A stretch of 34,868 nucleotides of DNA from Candidatus Nanohalarchaeota archaeon QJJ-5 (lineage in GTDB: Archaea; Nanohalarchaeota; Nanosalinia; Nanosalinales; Nanoanaerosalinaceae): the NCBI GenBank assembly GCA_022865265.1, contig JALIDO010000003.1, positions 1 through 34,868 on the forward strand, written 5' to 3'. Both the position numbers and the translations under genes were made by a program. Under the pieces are notes generated by a model. That model was not told where the DNA came from. It made no database searches and saw only the letters and a program-made list of their open reading frames with translations. This document shows positions 26,528 to 34,868 of the stretch, piece after piece. The stretch's first letter is position 1. Every line of letters starts with the position of its first letter.

Positions 26528-27766
26528 CTACTCATCATCAGTCTCGAGTTCCTGATCCCGGACGGTCGGCCGAGTGCCTTTTGCTTCTTTCTTTGCGGAT
26601 TCGGCGATCTGGTCCGTATTCAATGATGGCGTCATGTCCTGTGCCTCTTGTTCGGCATCCTGTTTCTCTTTGATATCTTCACCGACCTTCGATGCGAACT
26701 CTTTGGTTTCTTCTTTGAGTTCCATGAGTTCAGTATCGTCCAGCTCATCGAGTTTCTTGTCTTTGACCATGCTGATGACGTCATCCCAGCGGTCGAACAG
26801 TTCGCGGTGGTCTTCACCGAAATCGAGTTCTTCATCGACCACATCCGGCAGATCTTCTTTGTCTTCCGGTGGTTCGATGCCTTCTGATTTGAGAGCGGCT
26901 ACATTAGCCTTCAGGAACGTCTTGTAGTCATCGACGACATCTTTGACTTTTCGCTGTGAACCAAGTTCGCTGACTAGCTTGTGCATCCGTCGGATGAAAT
27001 CATCGGTCATCTCGAGATGTTCTTCAACTTCTTCGGCTGTGACCTCATCAGGGTGTTTCTCGCCCTTGTTGCCGAATTCATGGATCTGTTCAGCCATGTC
27101 TGCATATTTCTCCTCGAGCAGATCTTTTTCGACGAATAGTTCACGCAGTGCCTTGGCTACATCTTCCTTGTTCGGTGGTGTCTTGCCGATATACATGATC
27201 GGGGCTTGGCCAGCGTTCGCGATCGCCTGTTCCAGATTATGTGGGATACTCTGTCGCATCTTCTTGTCGCTTTTCTTGTAGCCAGCTGCCGCCATCTTGA
27301 GTCGTTTCTTGACGGCTTCTTCTGATGATGAGATCTTCCCACGTTCGAGCATCCGTTTCGCAGGCATGAATACGCCAACGTCATAGACCGGTTCTCCTTT
27401 CCGGAGCACACCGATGATCAACGGCTCGCCCTTTCTGATCGAATCCCAGAAGTCTGTCAGGAAGGAGAAATACTGGATGGTGATACGATCATCGGTCTCT
27501 TTCGCGAGCTTGGTGACCTTTTTCCTGATCTTGTCTTTGGCTTCGTCTGGAACATCTTTATCGAGCTTTGTATCATCCAGGACAACGAATGTATCGATAT
27601 CTGACTCATGTGTATGGCGTCCATCGGGCACAGATCCATAGACGGCGACACACATGACCTTGTCGCCGAGTTTTTCTTTCAACAGATCAGCGAATTCTTC
27701 GACTTTTTCGAATCGGCGTTCCTGTGATTTCTGACGGGCTTCCTGGAGCTTGTCTTTTGAACTCAT
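26528..27766 (-). CDS. Minimal nucleotidyltransferase-domain protein with long helical C-terminal region
   Basis: VAVYGSVPDGRHTHESDIDTFVVLDD (GS...DxD); downstream helical charged region. Confidence 0.75.
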   Translation of the reverse strand: MSSKDKLQEARQKSQERRFEKVEEFADLLKEKLGDKVMCVAVYGSVPDGRHTHESDIDTFVVLDDTKLDKDVPDEAKDKIRKKVTKLAKETDDRITIQYFSFLTDFWDSIRKGEPLIIGVLRKGEPVYDVGVFMPAKRMLERGKISSSEEAVKKRLKMAAAGYKKSDKKMRQSIPHNLEQAIANAGQAPIMYIGKTPPNKEDVAKALRELFVEKDLLEEKYADMAEQIHEFGNKGEKHPDEVTAEEVEEHLEMTDDFIRRMHKLVSELGSQRKVKDVVDDYKTFLKANVAALKSEGIEPPEDKEDLPDVVDEELDFGEDHRELFDRWDDVISMVKDKKLDELDDTELMELKEETKEFASKVGEDIKEKQDAEQEAQDMTPSLNTDQIAESAKKEAKGTRPTVRDQELETDDE

Positions 27767-27830: not shown

Positions 27831-30425
27831 TCAACGGTATTTTTCTTGTTCCCATTGTTCCGGCTGATTGTCCTGTTTCAGGGCAGCACGGCCGGTCCAT
27901 GTGTGATCTGGATTTTCCATGTACAGTAAGCCTTCAAGCGGGGCGAATGCGTTTTCAAAGATGGTCTCCCACTCATGATGCCATTCTTCATCGGTCAGTC
28001 CGAAGAACTTGAGGACGAGATAGTCTTTCAGGGTGAGGTCTTCGTTGCCTTTCTCATCGTATCGGTTCCAGGCCTCATCCACGTATTCGGTGGTCAGATC
28101 CTCAGGTGTGACGCCATGTTCGATCATATGCATCATCAGGCGCAGCATATAGGTGGACTCGGCTTTCTCTTCTCCGATCTCATACATCACGATGCTCGGT
28201 CGGTCATCGCGTTCACAGAAGCCACGTTCCACGAGAGAATACAGGTGTTCGAACACGATAGTGTCGCCACGTCTGATCGGCTGGTGATGGTGGCCGGTTT
28301 CGGAAAGTGCAGGATGCGTAACGTGTTGTTTTGTGATATAACGTCCATCACCATCTTCTAAACCTTCGAAATTATGTTCTTCATTGCCCTGGATTGTCCA
28401 GAGTGGATCAACGCCGTTCATGGCGAGATGTTCCATATCGATAGTACAGAACATGACATCATAGGTCTCACCGTTGATCTCGGTATTGTTGACCTCACGA
28501 CATACCTTGATGATGTCGCGTGGTTTCCAGAGTTTGCTCCGTCCTTCGCTCCCGACATTGTGCGATTCCCAGTCGAGTGTTAGTCCATGTTCATTCAGCA
28601 ACTCTACCAATGTCTTGTCTTGCCCGCGGCCGATGACCTGGGTGAACTGGCCCCACACATATGCAGCTGCACCGGCCGCATGGATCTTATCGTAGTCTTC
28701 TGAGTCTGCTAACTCGGCCAACCGTTCTTCGAAGGCATCCAGGTTATTCATACTGTATTCATCAGGATCGATGCCTGTGATCGCGTGCCATAACCGTTCG
28801 AGGTGCTCGTTGTCCGAAAACGGCATCCAGCGTGGCATGATCTCCCAGAAGATGTTCGATTCACGATTCATTTCATCCTGGAAGGCACCGCCACGGAAAT
28901 TGATGATATCACGGAACGCGACTTCGCCCTCGCTCATAGGATCATCATCTTTCATGAAGTAATCGCGGTTACCATCATACACTTCGGTCTCTTTCAGCCG
29001 TTCCTGTATCTCATCTTTCAGATCTTGCTTCAGTTTCTCATATACTGTATCCATTTCTTCATTGAGCCGTGCTTGGTCGCGTAGTGTATCGTCTCGGTCT
29101 TTCTCCCAGAATAGCTTCGGAATCATATGGATCCAGCGTGAGTTCGTATGCAGTTCTGGATCGAACCGAACCAGGGCCTGTGCGATGTTGGATCCTTCAC
29201 GATGCTTTTTCAGATCATCGAGACTCTCCGGGACATCCGATCTGACACCGGCCATCGTCTGGATAGCTGAGGTCCGGAGTTGATCATTCGTATTCTGAAA
29301 TCGCTGATTGTTCACATAGTGTTCCAAAAGGGATTCTTTATCTGGATACGCCTCATAGATGTCCTCACTATCGACAGCTGCCAGTGCACTTTGAAAGTCT
29401 TCCATGAGCTGGTTCAATTGATTCTGTAATAATTGTCTCTCCTGTGGGTCTGCTTCTGCAATCTGTTCCCGAAGATCATCCATCCTCGATTGGATGTCTT
29501 GGAGTTGTTCTTGGTGCTCGCCAGGTACGTTATTCACGAGGGCATCGATATCCATATCGTCTTGGTTACGGATGACTACTCTGCCAAGAGGAACGTCGAA
29601 TTCGACGATATCAGGGCGTTCATCTAATAGATATTTGAGATTTTCTACCATGTTTTCAGTTTCATCCAGATTGCTAACTGCTTCTAACATATCCTCTGTC
29701 AGATAACCGTCATCGCTCATGTGGTCGACGATGATCTTCCTTTGAAGGATGTTGAAGTCCGTATATCCTTCGATATCGTTTGCTATGCCCTGTAGTGTCT
29801 GGAAGTTATCTTTCAGTTCGCTTTCCCACAGATATTCCCGGAAGAAACTGACACGGAATTCTGGGCACTTGAAGATCCGTGACTCCATCATTTCGGTACC
29901 AAATGGATCGACTGACACTGATCCCGCCATGCGTTCTTCTCTTGCAGGGATTTCTGATTTCACGAGATGGGTATTGATACCATACACTGATTGCTGGTTC
30001 CCATTGACATCGGGTTCGCTTTCGATGGCGTCTTTGAAATCGCCCCAGGCATCGATGAAGTCATACATGAACTCATGACTGTAGTAAAAGCCCATCTGTT
30101 CGCGCTGTTCATAGTACGGGTTCGCATAATCGAACGGTATCTTGACCGGGAAATGGGCATCGAAGCTGAGTCCAAGCTGGCGTGACATCTGGATGAGCTG
30201 GTCCCATTCATTGTAGATCTGATTTGGGCCACCGAGATACATCTCGATGAAGCTCGCTCCCTGGTTCGAGGCCCAAGCGGCTCGTTTGTACAGTTCATCG
30301 GGAATGTCCGGGACGACATTCATGCCTGAAGAGACGGCAACGATATAGTTGAGATCCAGTGTCTTGTGCTGGTCCTGATTGATGAGTTGTCGGTACTGTT
30401 GTTTGACTTCTTGTTTTGTTGGCAT
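27831..30425 (-). CDS. Xylose-isomerase/AP-endonuclease-like TIM-barrel protein with large helical insertion
   Basis: GASFIEMYLGG, LGLSFDAHFPVKIP, GINTHLVKSE in N-terminal part; LTLDWESHNVG, MFCTIDMEHLAMNGVDP, KQHVTHPA, HHHQPIRRGDTIVFEHL, IVMYEIGEEKAES in C-terminal part. Confidence 0.65.
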   Translation of the reverse strand: MPTKQEVKQQYRQLINQDQHKTLDLNYIVAVSSGMNVVPDIPDELYKRAAWASNQGASFIEMYLGGPNQIYNEWDQLIQMSRQLGLSFDAHFPVKIPFDYANPYYEQREQMGFYYSHEFMYDFIDAWGDFKDAIESEPDVNGNQQSVYGINTHLVKSEIPAREERMAGSVSVDPFGTEMMESRIFKCPEFRVSFFREYLWESELKDNFQTLQGIANDIEGYTDFNILQRKIIVDHMSDDGYLTEDMLEAVSNLDETENMVENLKYLLDERPDIVEFDVPLGRVVIRNQDDMDIDALVNNVPGEHQEQLQDIQSRMDDLREQIAEADPQERQLLQNQLNQLMEDFQSALAAVDSEDIYEAYPDKESLLEHYVNNQRFQNTNDQLRTSAIQTMAGVRSDVPESLDDLKKHREGSNIAQALVRFDPELHTNSRWIHMIPKLFWEKDRDDTLRDQARLNEEMDTVYEKLKQDLKDEIQERLKETEVYDGNRDYFMKDDDPMSEGEVAFRDIINFRGGAFQDEMNRESNIFWEIMPRWMPFSDNEHLERLWHAITGIDPDEYSMNNLDAFEERLAELADSEDYDKIHAAGAAAYVWGQFTQVIGRGQDKTLVELLNEHGLTLDWESHNVGSEGRSKLWKPRDIIKVCREVNNTEINGETYDVMFCTIDMEHLAMNGVDPLWTIQGNEEHNFEGLEDGDGRYITKQHVTHPALSETGHHHQPIRRGDTIVFEHLYSLVERGFCERDDRPSIVMYEIGEEKAESTYMLRLMMHMIEHGVTPEDLTTEYVDEAWNRYDEKGNEDLTLKDYLVLKFFGLTDEEWHHEWETIFENAFAPLEGLLYMENPDHTWTGRAALKQDNQPEQWEQEKYR

Positions 30426-30435
30426 CTGGTGTCAC

Positions 30436-31827
30436 CTACTTCATCACGTACAGTCCGACATCGTATTTCAGCGAGATGTAGAGGGCTGCTGATCCACCGA
30501 ATTTCGGCCCGAGAAGGCCTTCACGGAGATCGGATGGGTCAACATGATAGTACGCATCACCTTTGCCTGCCCAGAACAGGAGCCGTCGCTGGAGTTCATC
30601 GAGGAATGACGGATCATAGGGGGTATATTCCTTATCAGTATGTTTCTGGATATCTGGTGCAATATCGTCTCCCACATACTCGGTGATATATCGTTTGACC
30701 TCGTTCTTTCGTTCATCGATCTGTGGCTGGAAGACCTCCTGGAAGACATGTTCACAGACCACATACTCTTTGAAATTGATCTTCATGACCTCACCCCCCT
30801 GGCCCGGGGACTGTGGCTGTTCAGAGCCTCCGAGGGAAATGTGGGTCGCATCAAGGATAACGACGTCTCGGTGCGTGACGACATCTTCGCCTTCATCATT
30901 TTCTGCTTCCCGGACAGGTTTATGGCAGATGACTTTGATGCCCCGGACAGACGAGGAATATCCTTCCATCATGTACGGATCGGACATCTCTGAGACTTTC
31001 GCTTCGGGGTCGCCTTCCATCTGCTGGATGGTCTGTACATACGGTTTGATCCAGTTCTCGGTCTGTTCGATCGATGTTTCGACCGATTTCAACCGGCGTT
31101 TGACTTCCCGGACCTTATCCTCGATCGCATCGGCATACCGATCTTTCCATTGTTCATAGAGCTTCCACTTCTTCCTGAGGATTGCTTTTTCCTGTTCGGG
31201 AAGATCACTCAGGTGTCCATCGCCTTTGAGATCATCGAGTGATTCCATGCTGTAGAAATCAGCCGTGATCGATGGGAAAATATCATTAGCAGTCATCTGG
31301 AGGATGCTGGCACGACCGGTATGTTGGTCGACCTCATCGACGAAATCGCCTTTGAGTGCTTCTTCTTTCCGATCTTCGAAGTGTTCGAGTTTCTCCTCGA
31401 GCATCCGTTCATCGTGTTCCAGCAGTTCCTTTTTCTCATAGAGTTCCTCGAGGTTCGCCAATGTCCTGCCGATCTGTTGTTCGGCCTGCTGGCGGCGTTG
31501 CTCCATCTCATGGTGGAGCTGAGACCCGGGGTTCGCATGAAGCCATTCACCAACTTTGCTGACCTCATATCCGAATTGGGTATCGAGGAGATCGACAGTC
31601 GCAAGATATGTGTCCACAGGAAGCCCCTGTGTCGCATCTGAAACCTTGATAAGCCTATTATGTGGTTCATCATGTGTTGCCCCTACATATGGTTCGCCGC
31701 TCGGCTGATTTTCATCGATCCATTCTTGTGCGGCTCCTGGTCCTTCTGTCCGGGCGATTTCACGAATTTTATCGATATTTGCCGGGTAACATCCATGCAT
31801 ACATCGATCCTCGGCTCCTTTTGTCAT
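30436..31827 (-). CDS. Coiled-coil protein of unknown family, adjacent to TIM-barrel gene
   Basis: 463 aa; N-terminal RCMHGCYPANIDKIREIA, long charged helical middle, C-terminal globular domain; 10-nt spacing to the downstream gene. Confidence 0.75.
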   Translation of the reverse strand: MTKGAEDRCMHGCYPANIDKIREIARTEGPGAAQEWIDENQPSGEPYVGATHDEPHNRLIKVSDATQGLPVDTYLATVDLLDTQFGYEVSKVGEWLHANPGSQLHHEMEQRRQQAEQQIGRTLANLEELYEKKELLEHDERMLEEKLEHFEDRKEEALKGDFVDEVDQHTGRASILQMTANDIFPSITADFYSMESLDDLKGDGHLSDLPEQEKAILRKKWKLYEQWKDRYADAIEDKVREVKRRLKSVETSIEQTENWIKPYVQTIQQMEGDPEAKVSEMSDPYMMEGYSSSVRGIKVICHKPVREAENDEGEDVVTHRDVVILDATHISLGGSEQPQSPGQGGEVMKINFKEYVVCEHVFQEVFQPQIDERKNEVKRYITEYVGDDIAPDIQKHTDKEYTPYDPSFLDELQRRLLFWAGKGDAYYHVDPSDLREGLLGPKFGGSAALYISLKYDVGLYVMK

Positions 31828-31909
31828 CTTCTCACCAGTATATCCCGTTATTTAGGTGCGGCCTCATAAGAATGTATCGCTCACAGTTGATTGTTCTAGA
31901 CAGTTCGAC

Positions 31910-31949
31910 AGGTGTATCCTACAAGGACATTCAGGTCTAGGATATACCT
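31910..31949. promoter_or_regulatory. 40-nt inverted repeat in divergent intergenic region
   Basis: aggtgtatcct (31910-31920) / aggatatacct (31939-31949), 11 pairs with one G-U when read as RNA, 18-nt spacer. Confidence 0.5.
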
Positions 31950-32010
31950 AAGGTGTCATCGTTACGCTTGATGATACTGAACTGATGATTGTACTGGATG
32001 ATTTGGCCAA

Positions 32011-32020
32011 AATTTAATAT
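32011..32020 (+). promoter_or_regulatory. Putative TATA box for the 32045 gene
   Basis: aatttaatat about 25-34 nt upstream of ATG 32045. Confidence 0.45.
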
Positions 32021-32044
32021 TCAGGTAGCTGAAAGAGATATACC

Positions 32045-32743
32045 ATGGGACTCGTGGACGATATCAAGGATAAAGTCGGAGATGAGAATACTGGGTCAGA
32101 CTCACAGGTTCGACGCCCACCAAAGAAACCTGGACAGGATAACAACACTAACAGAACCAGACAACAGGGATCACAGCAGTCACAGACTGGTCAGCGTCGC
32201 GGATCAAACCAGCGACAGGGCCAGAGCCGCGGGCAACAACAGAATCAGCGCGGTGGTTCCCAGCATCAAGGACGATCTGGTGGGCAGAATCAACGCCAAC
32301 AGTCCTCCCACCAATCACAGCAATCATCTCAGCCACGTCGTGGGCCTGGCGCAGAACAGGGGCCGCCTGACAGCCAGGGGCCGGACAGTCTCTCAGCACC
32401 AGGTCCGGCAGAGAATTCATCGGGCTCAGGCCGCGGTTCAGCAAATCCAGGTCCGACGGCGAACACATCACGTGGGCCGGAAGGTGGTCTCGATGATCTC
32501 GATGATCTTGGGTCCGCAGATGATCTTGGACAGAGTGAATCACCACCGGGTAATAGTCGGAGCCCTGAGGCATCTCTCAGAGATGATCCTGGTCCGGGTA
32601 ATGATATCACGCCGCCAGGGATGGATACCGATCGTGGATCATCAAGCGGCGAGCCGGACATGAGTCAGTTACAACAGCAGAATCAACAGATCATAAACCT
32701 TCTTGAAGATATTCGTGATGCACTGGAGCGACAACCGCGATGA
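32045..32743 (+). CDS. Q/G/R/S/P-rich disordered protein with N-terminal amphipathic segment and C-terminal coiled-coil helix
   Basis: MGLVDDIKDKVGDEN ... low-complexity ... MSQLQQQNQQIINLLEDIRDALERQPR. Confidence 0.8.
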   Translation: MGLVDDIKDKVGDENTGSDSQVRRPPKKPGQDNNTNRTRQQGSQQSQTGQRRGSNQRQGQSRGQQQNQRGGSQHQGRSGGQNQRQQSSHQSQQSSQPRRGPGAEQGPPDSQGPDSLSAPGPAENSSGSGRGSANPGPTANTSRGPEGGLDDLDDLGSADDLGQSESPPGNSRSPEASLRDDPGPGNDITPPGMDTDRGSSSGEPDMSQLQQQNQQIINLLEDIRDALERQPR

Positions 32744-33090
32744 AGATCTTTGATAAACTCAATGACGACAATGAGGATGAAGAAGTAGAGCTCAAGCCAG
32801 ATACGCGGTTGAAAGATGAGGTGGCAGCCCGCACACAGGATCGGGGATCATCATCGACTTCGACAGATGATGAAAGCGAGTCCCTTCTACCTGGTGCTGT
32901 TGGTGGTAGCGATACTACATCGGATCGTGGACGTGTATCCTCATCCACAAAGACGGATGGTGATCTCGAGGAACAGATCAAGACCGTGATCGAGCAGAAT
33001 GAACGTATAATCGAACTGCTCGAGACCATCTCATCCGTGTCCTCGGGATCGACGAATCGTTCTAGTGATGGCAAGGACGAATTATGGTGA
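32740..33090 (+). CDS. Acidic disordered protein of the same architecture
   Basis: MKIFDKLNDDNEDEE ... EEQIKTVIEQNERIIELLETISSV; ATGA overlap with upstream gene. Confidence 0.75.
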   Translation: MKIFDKLNDDNEDEEVELKPDTRLKDEVAARTQDRGSSSTSTDDESESLLPGAVGGSDTTSDRGRVSSSTKTDGDLEEQIKTVIEQNERIIELLETISSVSSGSTNRSSDGKDELW

Positions 33091-33102
33091 CGGCTGATAG
33101 TC

Positions 33103-33576
33103 ATGTCGTTTTATGATAGTGTCAAAGATCGTGTGCGTGATGATGAGACAGATGAAGACGATGATACGGAATCAAGTGGTGGTACAATGGCATTCGATGA
33201 ACTAGTGAAGAAAGCAGAACAACAAGACGATGATGAGGAAGAACAACAAGATGATACAGAGATCGAGGACTTTTCCGGTGGTGGCAGTGGTGGATCAAAG
33301 GATTATGGAGATCCATCGAGCATCGAGCTGAATGAAGAGACAGAACCACAGGCGGGAGATGGGTCGAGTGAGCCCTCATCGTCTGAGGACAAGGACGATG
33401 ATGAGGTCGAAATCCATAGTGATGGTTCTGTTACACCCCCCGGAGAGCAAGAACAGCATGAGCAAGAGCAGAAACCTGTTGATGGAGATGGTGATGTCAT
33501 CGCACTGCTCCAGGAAATCCGTAATCAGAACGACCAGATTATCAGTGTACTTCGCGATATCCGCGAACGCATGTAA
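33103..33576 (+). CDS. Acidic disordered protein of the same architecture
   Basis: MSFYDSVKDRVRDDE ... VIALLQEIRNQNDQIISVLRDIRERM. Confidence 0.78.
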   Translation: MSFYDSVKDRVRDDETDEDDDTESSGGTMAFDELVKKAEQQDDDEEEQQDDTEIEDFSGGGSGGSKDYGDPSSIELNEETEPQAGDGSSEPSSSEDKDDDEVEIHSDGSVTPPGEQEQHEQEQKPVDGDGDVIALLQEIRNQNDQIISVLRDIRERM

Positions 33577-33587
33577 GGGTGTTTTTA

Positions 33588-34301
33588 GTGACAGAACGGA
33601 TCTATATGGAAGATTGCTATGCTGAGACGGTCTCGACACAGGTCGAAGCTATAAGGGCTGGTGGTATTGTCCTCAGTGAGACTGTTTTTTACCCAGAGGG
33701 CGGTGGTCAGCCTGCAGATCAGGGCGTGATCAACGTCGGTGGGACGTCCATCCAGGTTACAGACGTTTCCGTCGATCACGGGGAAATTCTCCATCATGTC
33801 GAATCGACAGATCCAATCACGGAGGGGGATGATGTGGATGCGAGGATCGACTGGGAGCGTCGTCATATGTTGATGCGTATGCATACAGCCCAGCATCTTC
33901 TCAGTGCTGTTGTTCTGGATATGTTTGATGCAAAAACTGTCGGTAATCAGATCCATCCGTCATATTCCCGTATTGATTTCGAGCCGGTAAATTTCAGTCA
34001 AAAGGATCTCGATCGGATCGAACGTCGTTGTAATGCCTTGATTGAAGAAGAACGGTCTGTATCGATCTATGAAGAAGACCGGGAAACTGTTGTTGAGAAA
34101 CTGCCAGTAGGACGATCGAACCTCGACCTCATACCAGATCATATCGATCCGTTGCGGGTTGTCGAGATTGAAGGTCTCGATATCTGTCCCTGTGGTGGGA
34201 CACATGTGAGCAATCTCGATGAGATTGGTCGATTCATCATCGAAGACAGGAAAAGCAAAGGCGAGGACATCGATCGTATCGAGTTCAGTCTCGATGCATG
34301 A
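33588..34301 (+). CDS. alaX: Alanyl-tRNA editing protein AlaX
   Basis: TVFYPEGGGQPADQG, MHTAQHLLSAV, CPCGGTHVSNLDEIG; GTG start at 33588 preferred (MTERIYMED). Confidence 0.93.
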   Translation: MTERIYMEDCYAETVSTQVEAIRAGGIVLSETVFYPEGGGQPADQGVINVGGTSIQVTDVSVDHGEILHHVESTDPITEGDDVDARIDWERRHMLMRMHTAQHLLSAVVLDMFDAKTVGNQIHPSYSRIDFEPVNFSQKDLDRIERRCNALIEEERSVSIYEEDRETVVEKLPVGRSNLDLIPDHIDPLRVVEIEGLDICPCGGTHVSNLDEIGRFIIEDRKSKGEDIDRIEFSLDA

Positions 34302-34868
34302 CTTCAAGGCACTTGTGCGGTCAGTGTGGGAACGCAGTTTTGATGGGGAAAACCGTCGGTACCACCGATTCAGAACAGCAGATAGCGGATCGACACTGGT
34401 TGCCGATTGTATTGGATCAAATCTCCGATGTGCCCACGAGTGGGGATGGTGTGAAGGGATTCTTGATGATCCATCAGCTGGCCGACTTGTATCGCCTGAT
34501 GAGATCGTGAACCGAGCTAAGGACTGTGATGCAACGGCAGTACGTGTCACAGGGATGGAACCCGTGATGCATGATCGTCATCTCCTCCAGCTGGCAGAGA
34601 CCATTCCTGAGAGCATGACCTTGCGGATCGAAACCAACGGGATGTTACTTGGTGGAGCATACATGCGTGCTCTGACTGATCGCTGTGATTGTCATGTCCG
34701 GCTCTCGTTCAAGGGAAGCGATCCGGAACAGTTCAGCAAGCTGGCTAGGGTAGATCAACGGTATTTTCAGAATCAGGTCCAGTCATTCCACGCGATACGG
34801 AAAGCTGAGTGCAGCATTGAGCTGGCTCTTGCTGGTGTCTATGATGAGGAAGATGCAAAAAAGCTTGG
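34294..34868 (+). CDS. Radical-SAM-like protein (truncated by window end), atypical cluster motif
   Basis: Manual translation: MHDFKALVRSVWERSFDGENRRYHRFRTADSGSTLVADCIGSNLRCAHEWGWCEG...VRVTGMEPV...LRIETNGMLLGG...HVRLSFKGSDPEQFSKL; absent from ORF track because it runs off the end. Confidence 0.7.
   Translation, partial: MHDFKALVRSVWERSFDGENRRYHRFRTADSGSTLVADCIGSNLRCAHEWGWCEGILDDPSAGRLVSPDEIVNRAKDCDATAVRVTGMEPVMHDRHLLQLAETIPESMTLRIETNGMLLGGAYMRALTDRCDCHVRLSFKGSDPEQFSKLARVDQRYFQNQVQSFHAIRKAECSIELALAGVYDEEDAKKL

Follow-up and report, generated by a model that had tools for sequence, protein, structure and literature searches.

A conserved trio of coiled-coil genes in Nanohalarchaeota, linked to a widespread archaeal gene cluster, as candidate scaffold components

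Three consecutive genes, designated A, B, and C, lie in the 34,868-nt stretch of DNA from Candidatus Nanohalarchaeota archaeon QJJ-5 analyzed here (the window). They were found to be conserved across Nanohalarchaeota, to encode C-terminal helices with a common heptad register, and to be linked to a divergent operon, fam8-fam7-fam6, which recurs in small archaeal genomes outside the phylum, partly together with genes of A-like layout. In the reading that we prefer, to which we assign a probability of roughly 0.5, A, B, and C would be duplicated, partly amphipathic coiled-coil tethers that organize the fam8-fam7-fam6 module as the scaffold of one assembly.

Results

Coding capacity of the trio

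All three genes are encoded on the plus strand. Gene A (32045..32743) specifies a protein of 232 aa consisting of an N-terminal amphipathic segment MGLVDDIKDKVG, a disordered linker rich in R/Q/G/N/P, a C-terminal heptad helix, and a basic tail RQPR. Gene B (32740..33090; 116 aa) begins with MKIFDKLN, continues through a conserved EEVELKP box, an acidic linker, and a helix bearing a Gln-Asn (QN) pair, and terminates in a tail ending with DELW. Gene C (33103..33576; 157 aa) comprises a MSFYDSVKDRVR helix, an FDELxxxA helix, a DDTxIExx box, an acidic linker, and likewise a QN helix. The initial annotation had placed these genes exactly: A and B overlap by 4 nt (ATGA), B and C are separated by 12 nt, and every N- and C-terminal peptide that it quoted was correct. 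An ORF of 137 aa running across B on the minus strand was found to be an overlapping frame.

To evaluate selection, close pairs of relatives were compared, giving dN/dS values of 0.26 for A, 0.12–0.15 for B, and 0.11–0.19 for C. These low values indicate that the frames are translated and selected, and thus that A, B, and C are real genes under purifying selection. Along each protein, the ends were usually better conserved than the middle in the same comparison. Downstream of C (33579–34868), an AlaX-like alanyl-tRNA editing gene is followed by a radical-SAM gene that is truncated where the contig stops, and related genes also follow C in genome G001.

The C-terminal helices and their common register

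The C-terminal coiled-coil helix of A, MSQLQQQNQQIINLLEDIRDALERQPR (32660..32740, plus strand), is matched by the heptad helix of B, LEEQIKTVIEQNERIIELLETISS (32962..33036, plus strand), in which Q86-N87 is invariant. In C, the corresponding helix spans residues 129–156 (33487..33570, plus strand), was predicted by AlphaFold2 with pLDDT of 90–96, and carries the invariant Q142-N143, N143 occupying heptad position a. The Gln-Asn pair was retained in all 54 homologues (14 of A, 20 of B, and 20 of C) within a single common heptad register. When the sequences of A, B, and C were aligned on the invariant Asn, position d was hydrophobic in 98–100%, position a was hydrophobic apart from the Asn, and positions e and g were hydrophobic in 48–65% and 27–43%, respectively. 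By the rules known for coiled coils, such frequent hydrophobic residues at e and g suggest that more than two helices bundle together.

The specificity of the motif was assessed in the predicted proteins of 13 neighborhoods, totaling 66,159 residues, in which QNxx[IVLM][IVLM]x[LVIK]Lxx[ILVMF] occurred 28 times, each time in an A, B, or C protein (28/28). Furthermore, a C profile searched against the whole 701-kb genome from which the window derives matched C (1.4e-33), B (8.5e-7), and A (0.005) and nothing else. The shared C-terminal motif that the initial annotation had noted is therefore both real and conserved in relatives. Profile-profile comparison of the C-terminal 28–32 residues gave E-values of about 1e-6 to 1e-7 for A/B, A/C, and B/C, values of a kind that coiled coils tend to inflate. 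Tandem duplication would be the simplest account of the origin of the three genes.

These features also bear on the reading that the trio consists of low-complexity ORFs whose generic coiled-coil motif makes them alike by chance. In a high-salt organism, acidic and low-complexity coding sequence can indeed yield long spurious ORFs. The conserved operon, the purifying selection, the invariant QN pair, and the 66,159 residues without any other match to the motif, which is confined to A, B, and C, nevertheless refute this reading, and we regard it as having practically no chance of being correct.

The common register and the invariant Asn layer suggest that the three C-terminal helices could mix with one another. 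The charge-pair score of the A, B, and C heptads at positions e and g gave no preference for hetero- over homo-assembly.

N-termini, linkers, and predicted fold

The initial annotation had described all three proteins as an amphipathic N-terminal helix, a disordered linker, and a coiled coil. This layout agreed with the AlphaFold2 prediction for C, made with eight C sequences, with the addition of one short helix. The predicted helices comprise residues 3–15 (33109..33147, plus strand; pLDDT 76 for the first ten residues and 55 for the next ten), residues 31–44 (33193..33234, plus strand; FDELVKKAEQQ, conserved as FDxLKExA; pLDDT 74 for residues 31–40), and the C-terminal helix 129–156, the region between being mostly below 65 and in parts below 50.

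As for amphipathicity, the muH of the first 12 residues was 0.31–0.64 in A (median 0.51) and 0.39–0.56 in C (median 0.43), above the background median of 0.26 in every A and every C, while B ranged from 0.12 to 0.55 with a median of 0.23. In the window, the segment of A (32045..32080, plus strand) reached 0.49. The amphipathic N-terminus thus stood for A and, to a moderate degree, for C, but not for B, whose muH was at background and which is not reliably amphipathic. Judged from these values, membrane binding is plausible for the N-terminus of A and possible for that of C. The proposed likeness of the three N-termini fared similarly: A (MGLxDDIKDKxG) and C (MAFYDSVKDKVR) matched over 14 residues with a profile probability of 26%, which is suggestive, but the N-terminus of B matched neither A nor C in the profile comparison.

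Within the otherwise free linkers, conserved boxes were recognized, namely DDTxIExL in C, EEVELKP near the start of B, and KPxKKPG in A of family f1. The extreme C-terminus of B in the window (33061–33087) and its homologues shows the variants DELW, EELW, DTVW, DTVL, DELL, NELL, and NGVL, and may be a short peptide to which a partner protein binds. The linker of A evolves fast, and a search with the A protein therefore recovers almost nothing.

The linker charges had been taken to be Arg-rich early in A and strongly acidic in B and C. In the window, the linker of C is strongly acidic (-38), but that of B is not (-9), and that of A amounts overall to only -1 (+10, 0, and -11 by thirds). Among relatives, even the sign varies: the B linker is at +3 to +11 in three of them (G002–G004), and the first third of the A linker is negative in at least five genomes of family f4. 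Because this charge pattern is not conserved, the idea of a condensate formed through oppositely charged linkers was dropped.

Conservation of the trio and the neighborhood of arvABC

The relatives that bear names (QJJ-7, QJJ-9, Nanoanaerosalina NHA20-24, and AB_1215_Bin_137) are Nanohalarchaeota. Conservation of the triplet in relatives, on which the initial annotation had staked its reading, was evident in eight genomes from four families (f1, f2, f3, and f5), where the A-B-C order is intact and divergent from fam8 (8/8), with fam7 and then fam6 following fam8 wherever the contig extends far enough.

In the fifth family, f4, the set is split, A being generally unlinked from B-C. A profile search detected C in 16 of the 19 f4 genomes, and B and C were adjacent in every f4 genome inspected. 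The three genomes with no C match (G023, G025, and G026) are 68–78% complete. Gene A adjoins fam8 in G012, G013, G016, G017, and probably G027, occupies other loci beside an NYN/DUF88-like gene in G010 and G019, and was not seen adjoining fam8 in G007, G011, and G024. Because A is unlinked from B-C in f4 and was not seen beside fam8 in the last three genomes, the three proteins need not form a strict stoichiometric A-B-C complex.

Several further observations were made in these neighborhoods. A gene with the NYN/DUF88 pattern, recognized by eye, turns up repeatedly close to A or C in several families (L024 5833–6294, L027 8195–8659, L104 3665–4150, and L131 4137–4613). In G027, fam8 (L107 5620–7295) is split into two overlapping frames, which is a frameshift or assembly error. 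The same genome gave two C matches on contig C3 (L134), at 196702 and 224279, about 28 kb apart, the second accompanied by B, C, and an Amphi-Trp-like gene; this may reflect a strain mixture, the contamination estimate being 7%.

The organization of f4 gives rise to the main rival of the tether reading, namely that B and C, possibly together with A, assist the ArvA/OapA GTPase system in budding extracellular vesicles, as a coiled-coil tether or coat adaptor that is brought to the membrane beside ArvA. In all 16 f4 genomes having both genes, no more than 1.7 kb separates C from oapB/arvB, and the block also carries oapC and genes for the OapA GTPase, a small membrane protein, and an Amphi-Trp protein; the three f4 genomes that gave no C match likewise gave no OapB match. 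ArvA, ArvB, and ArvC affect the formation of extracellular vesicles in Haloferax volcanii (PMC10927574). This explanation rests on linkage in the single family f4, and arvABC was unlinked to A-B-C in f1, f2, f3, and f5. In the genome of the window, an intact-looking arvABC/oapABC set is located on contig C45 (L118 2826–4254), and A, B, and C do not adjoin it. Moreover, the entire f4 block is conserved, including unrelated genes, so that the adjacency may represent vertically inherited gene order. On balance, we consider an Arv-dependent role unlikely, though the strongest of the rivals. The GTPase at L118 starts with a strongly amphipathic helix, MIRRLQRFLNGLFG (muH 0.83).

The divergent fam8-fam7-fam6 operon

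Upstream of A, and separated from it by 217 bp (31828..32044) in which both putative promoters are presumed to lie, a divergent operon occupies the minus strand. Its first gene, fam8 (30436..31827), encodes a coiled-coil/beta protein of 463 aa predicted to contain a long helical hairpin and three long beta strands, the model being of low confidence (pLDDT 62.6, pTM 0.48). A Foldseek search of this model against the PDB gave no match with E < 0.001, the best matches being mostly generic coiled-coil hairpins. The second, fam7 (27831..30425; 864 aa), was assigned through its relatives to the TIM-barrel AP_endonuc_2/CbiR-like superfamily and has invariant His/Asp/Glu residues. The relative at L147 matched PF01261 with 35.3 bits against a cut-off of 31.1, and that at L112 matched CbiR at 6e-9, under the CbiR cut-off; the window protein itself gave no Pfam match reaching the cut-off. 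The third, fam6 (26528..27766; 412 aa), joins a nucleotidyltransferase domain (PF01909) to a C-terminal region of putative HEPN type. The window protein matched NTP_transf_2 at 2.3e-7 and DUF4145 weakly (0.01), and its relative at L147 matched NTP_transf_2 at 1.2e-9 and HepT-like at 5.6e-4, the latter under the cut-off.

The presence of fam6 raises two further explanations. One is an RNA or RNP condensate, in which the R/G/Q/N-rich A linker would bind RNA and concentrate the MNT-HEPN protein, which may be an RNase or a nucleotidyltransferase, together with the NYN/DUF88 protein. This would fit the composition of the A linker (47–74% Q/N/G/R/S/P across relatives), the nucleotidyltransferase and HepT-like domains of fam6, and the NYN-type gene, assigned by sequence pattern only, that lies nearby in G001, G009, and several f4 genomes. 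Against it, the charge and Arg content of the linkers vary among relatives, a low-complexity linker is by itself no evidence of phase separation, and it is the coiled coil and both ends that are conserved. We accordingly hold this explanation to be improbable, even more so than the Arv-dependent one.

The other explanation takes the MNT-HEPN gene as the mark of a toxin-antitoxin or defence module with A-B-C as its regulators, fam6 having weak matches to PADLOC PDC-S09 (1.8e-8), a candidate-defence nucleotidyltransferase, and to MNT families. Unlike the patchily distributed defence and toxin-antitoxin genes, however, the trio is near-universal in its taxonomic order and belongs to a cluster recurring in small archaeal genomes; A, B, and C lack any PADLOC match; and a DPANN MNT-HEPN family has been placed in a house-keeping context (PMC6393860). 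Its likelihood is slight, and membership of A, B, and C in a defence or toxin-antitoxin system was rejected on the grounds of the PADLOC result and the distribution.

The fam8 cluster outside the phylum

Of 397 archaeal genomes searched with a 14-member fam8 profile, 94 were found to contain the family, and most of these are 0.5–1.6 Mb in size. Among the 20 fam8 regions outside Nanohalarchaeota that were compared (L141–L160), fam8 was commonly followed by genes for the TIM-barrel protein and for a nucleotidyltransferase protein that includes a HepT-like region, and in many regions was preceded by a small membrane protein gene and a divergent pair of paralogous genes whose products, about 170 aa long, carry a GPxP box. 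From their small genomes and gene content, the organisms concerned would be DPANN archaea.

Outside the phylum, ten genomes have a gene with the layout of A in the cluster (L112, L119, L120, L142, L144, L147, L149, L150, L151, and L155); these genes were assigned by position and layout, the sequence similarity being not significant. In six of them (L144, L147, L149, L150, L151, and L155), the A-like gene sits next to or near the GPxP pair, and its product starts with a helix-prone, mostly cationic segment (for example, MGLFGRLKDKI and MSFLDIFKKLIPKKK), is disordered in the middle, and ends in a short coil. Several of the N-termini outside the phylum are cationic and amphipathic with a HeliQuest-type D above 0.7. 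The C-termini in L142, L119, and L120 read QNEQILEILRHLEKR or QNAVILE[KR]LKRI, and the A-like gene in L112 is divergent from fam8, as in the window.

In Nanohalarchaeota, a profile search revealed that the GPxP genes are kept at a separate locus, two or three in a row. In the genome of the window, the row (L161 4841–6436, contig C1) contains about three genes, two of which were matched by the profile; three were matched in G008 and G009. This row lies near CBS-domain-like and DnaG-like genes, both recognized by eye, while elsewhere the GPxP pair sits in the fam8 cluster. When PDB sequences were searched with profiles of fam8, fam7, and the GPxP family, nothing meaningful emerged, and neither fam8 nor the GPxP family had a convincing Pfam or PDB match.

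Discussion

In agreement with the initial annotation, which recognized no described family, A, B, and C had no matching model in Pfam, NCBIfam, PHROGs, or PADLOC. As fam7 and fam8 were also without a PHROGs match, a viral or mobile-element identity was rejected. Our literature searches found the triplet not described and the cluster not described as a unit, the only related item being the MNT-HEPN family in PMC6393860.

Comparison with known systems would place the trio among scaffolds of familiar construction. SepF and similar proteins carry a short N-terminal membrane-targeting amphipathic segment followed by a flexible linker, and golgins, DivIVA, and PopZ combine a disordered spacer with an oligomerizing helix that localizes partners. 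The trio may resemble SepF in a short amphipathic segment and flexible linker, but has no SepF domain (no Pfam match) and ends in a heptad helix rather than a globular domain. Its likeness to golgins, DivIVA, and PopZ is one of possible working only: no sequence relation was detected, and the coiled coil of A, B, and C is far shorter. The A-like protein at L151 weakly matched the archaellum accessory family FlaC_arch (PF05377; E = 0.042, under the gathering cut-off), which is probably a generic coiled-coil match, and the window proteins gave no match to it.

With ArvABC/OapABC (PF01926-type GTPase, OapB PF09846, and OapC PF09845), the connection is that of a neighbor of B-C in f4, with a possible membrane-remodeling context. 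A, B, and C match neither the GTPase nor the OapB or OapC families, are not homologous to ArvA, ArvB, or ArvC, and are unlinked to their genes in the family of the window, whose genome has its own set; on family matches, they were rejected as components of that system. Meanwhile, the fam6-type protein probably belongs to the DPANN family cls.004259 (NEQ050), to which it was likened by its domain make-up of nucleotidyltransferase plus HEPN-type region and by the broad distribution of its partner fam8 in small genomes of archaea. Makarova and co-workers listed this family as uncharacterized and in a house-keeping context, and the part of their account available to us describes neither the A-like genes nor the cluster (PMC6393860). 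Amphipathic helix, disordered linker, and coiled coil are individually known, and the trio is taken to be a variant of such scaffolds; the surrounding module could go beyond this.

In the tether reading, the short N-terminal helix of each protein would dock on the membrane or on a partner, being amphipathic in A, moderately so in C, and weakly in B, and the long disordered linkers would carry short conserved recognition motifs. The three-heptad C-terminal helices, burying their Asn at position a and presenting hydrophobic residues at e and g, would then pack in parallel into a bundle of at least three, most likely one of mixed A/B/C composition. Such a bundle would gather and position the fam8-fam7-fam6 products, its most likely clients, and also the small GPxP proteins encoded elsewhere, the outcome being one DPANN-wide, probably membrane-associated assembly. 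It counts against this reading that B lacks a convincing amphipathic N-terminus in most genomes.

More tentatively, and with the balance tilted against it, DPANN archaea may share an undescribed membrane-linked assembly composed of fam8, the TIM-barrel enzyme, the MNT-HEPN protein, two or three GPxP proteins, the small membrane protein, and tethers, the tether having been triplicated to A-B-C in Nanohalarchaeota and linked to vesicle budding in one family. If so, it could function at the cell surface of symbiotic archaea or in their vesicles.

Many conserved genes of symbiotic DPANN archaea are unannotated. The trio is retained throughout Nanohalarchaeota and is tied to a cluster whose marker fam8 is found in about one quarter of the archaeal genomes searched, most of them small; through this combination of a phylum-wide trio with a widespread cluster, it qualifies as a candidate core structure of the cell in these archaea. 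With its two-end layout and fixed coiled-coil register, the trio lends itself to a direct test of the scaffold idea, and its link to arvABC in f4 opens a way into the study of vesicle formation in DPANN archaea.
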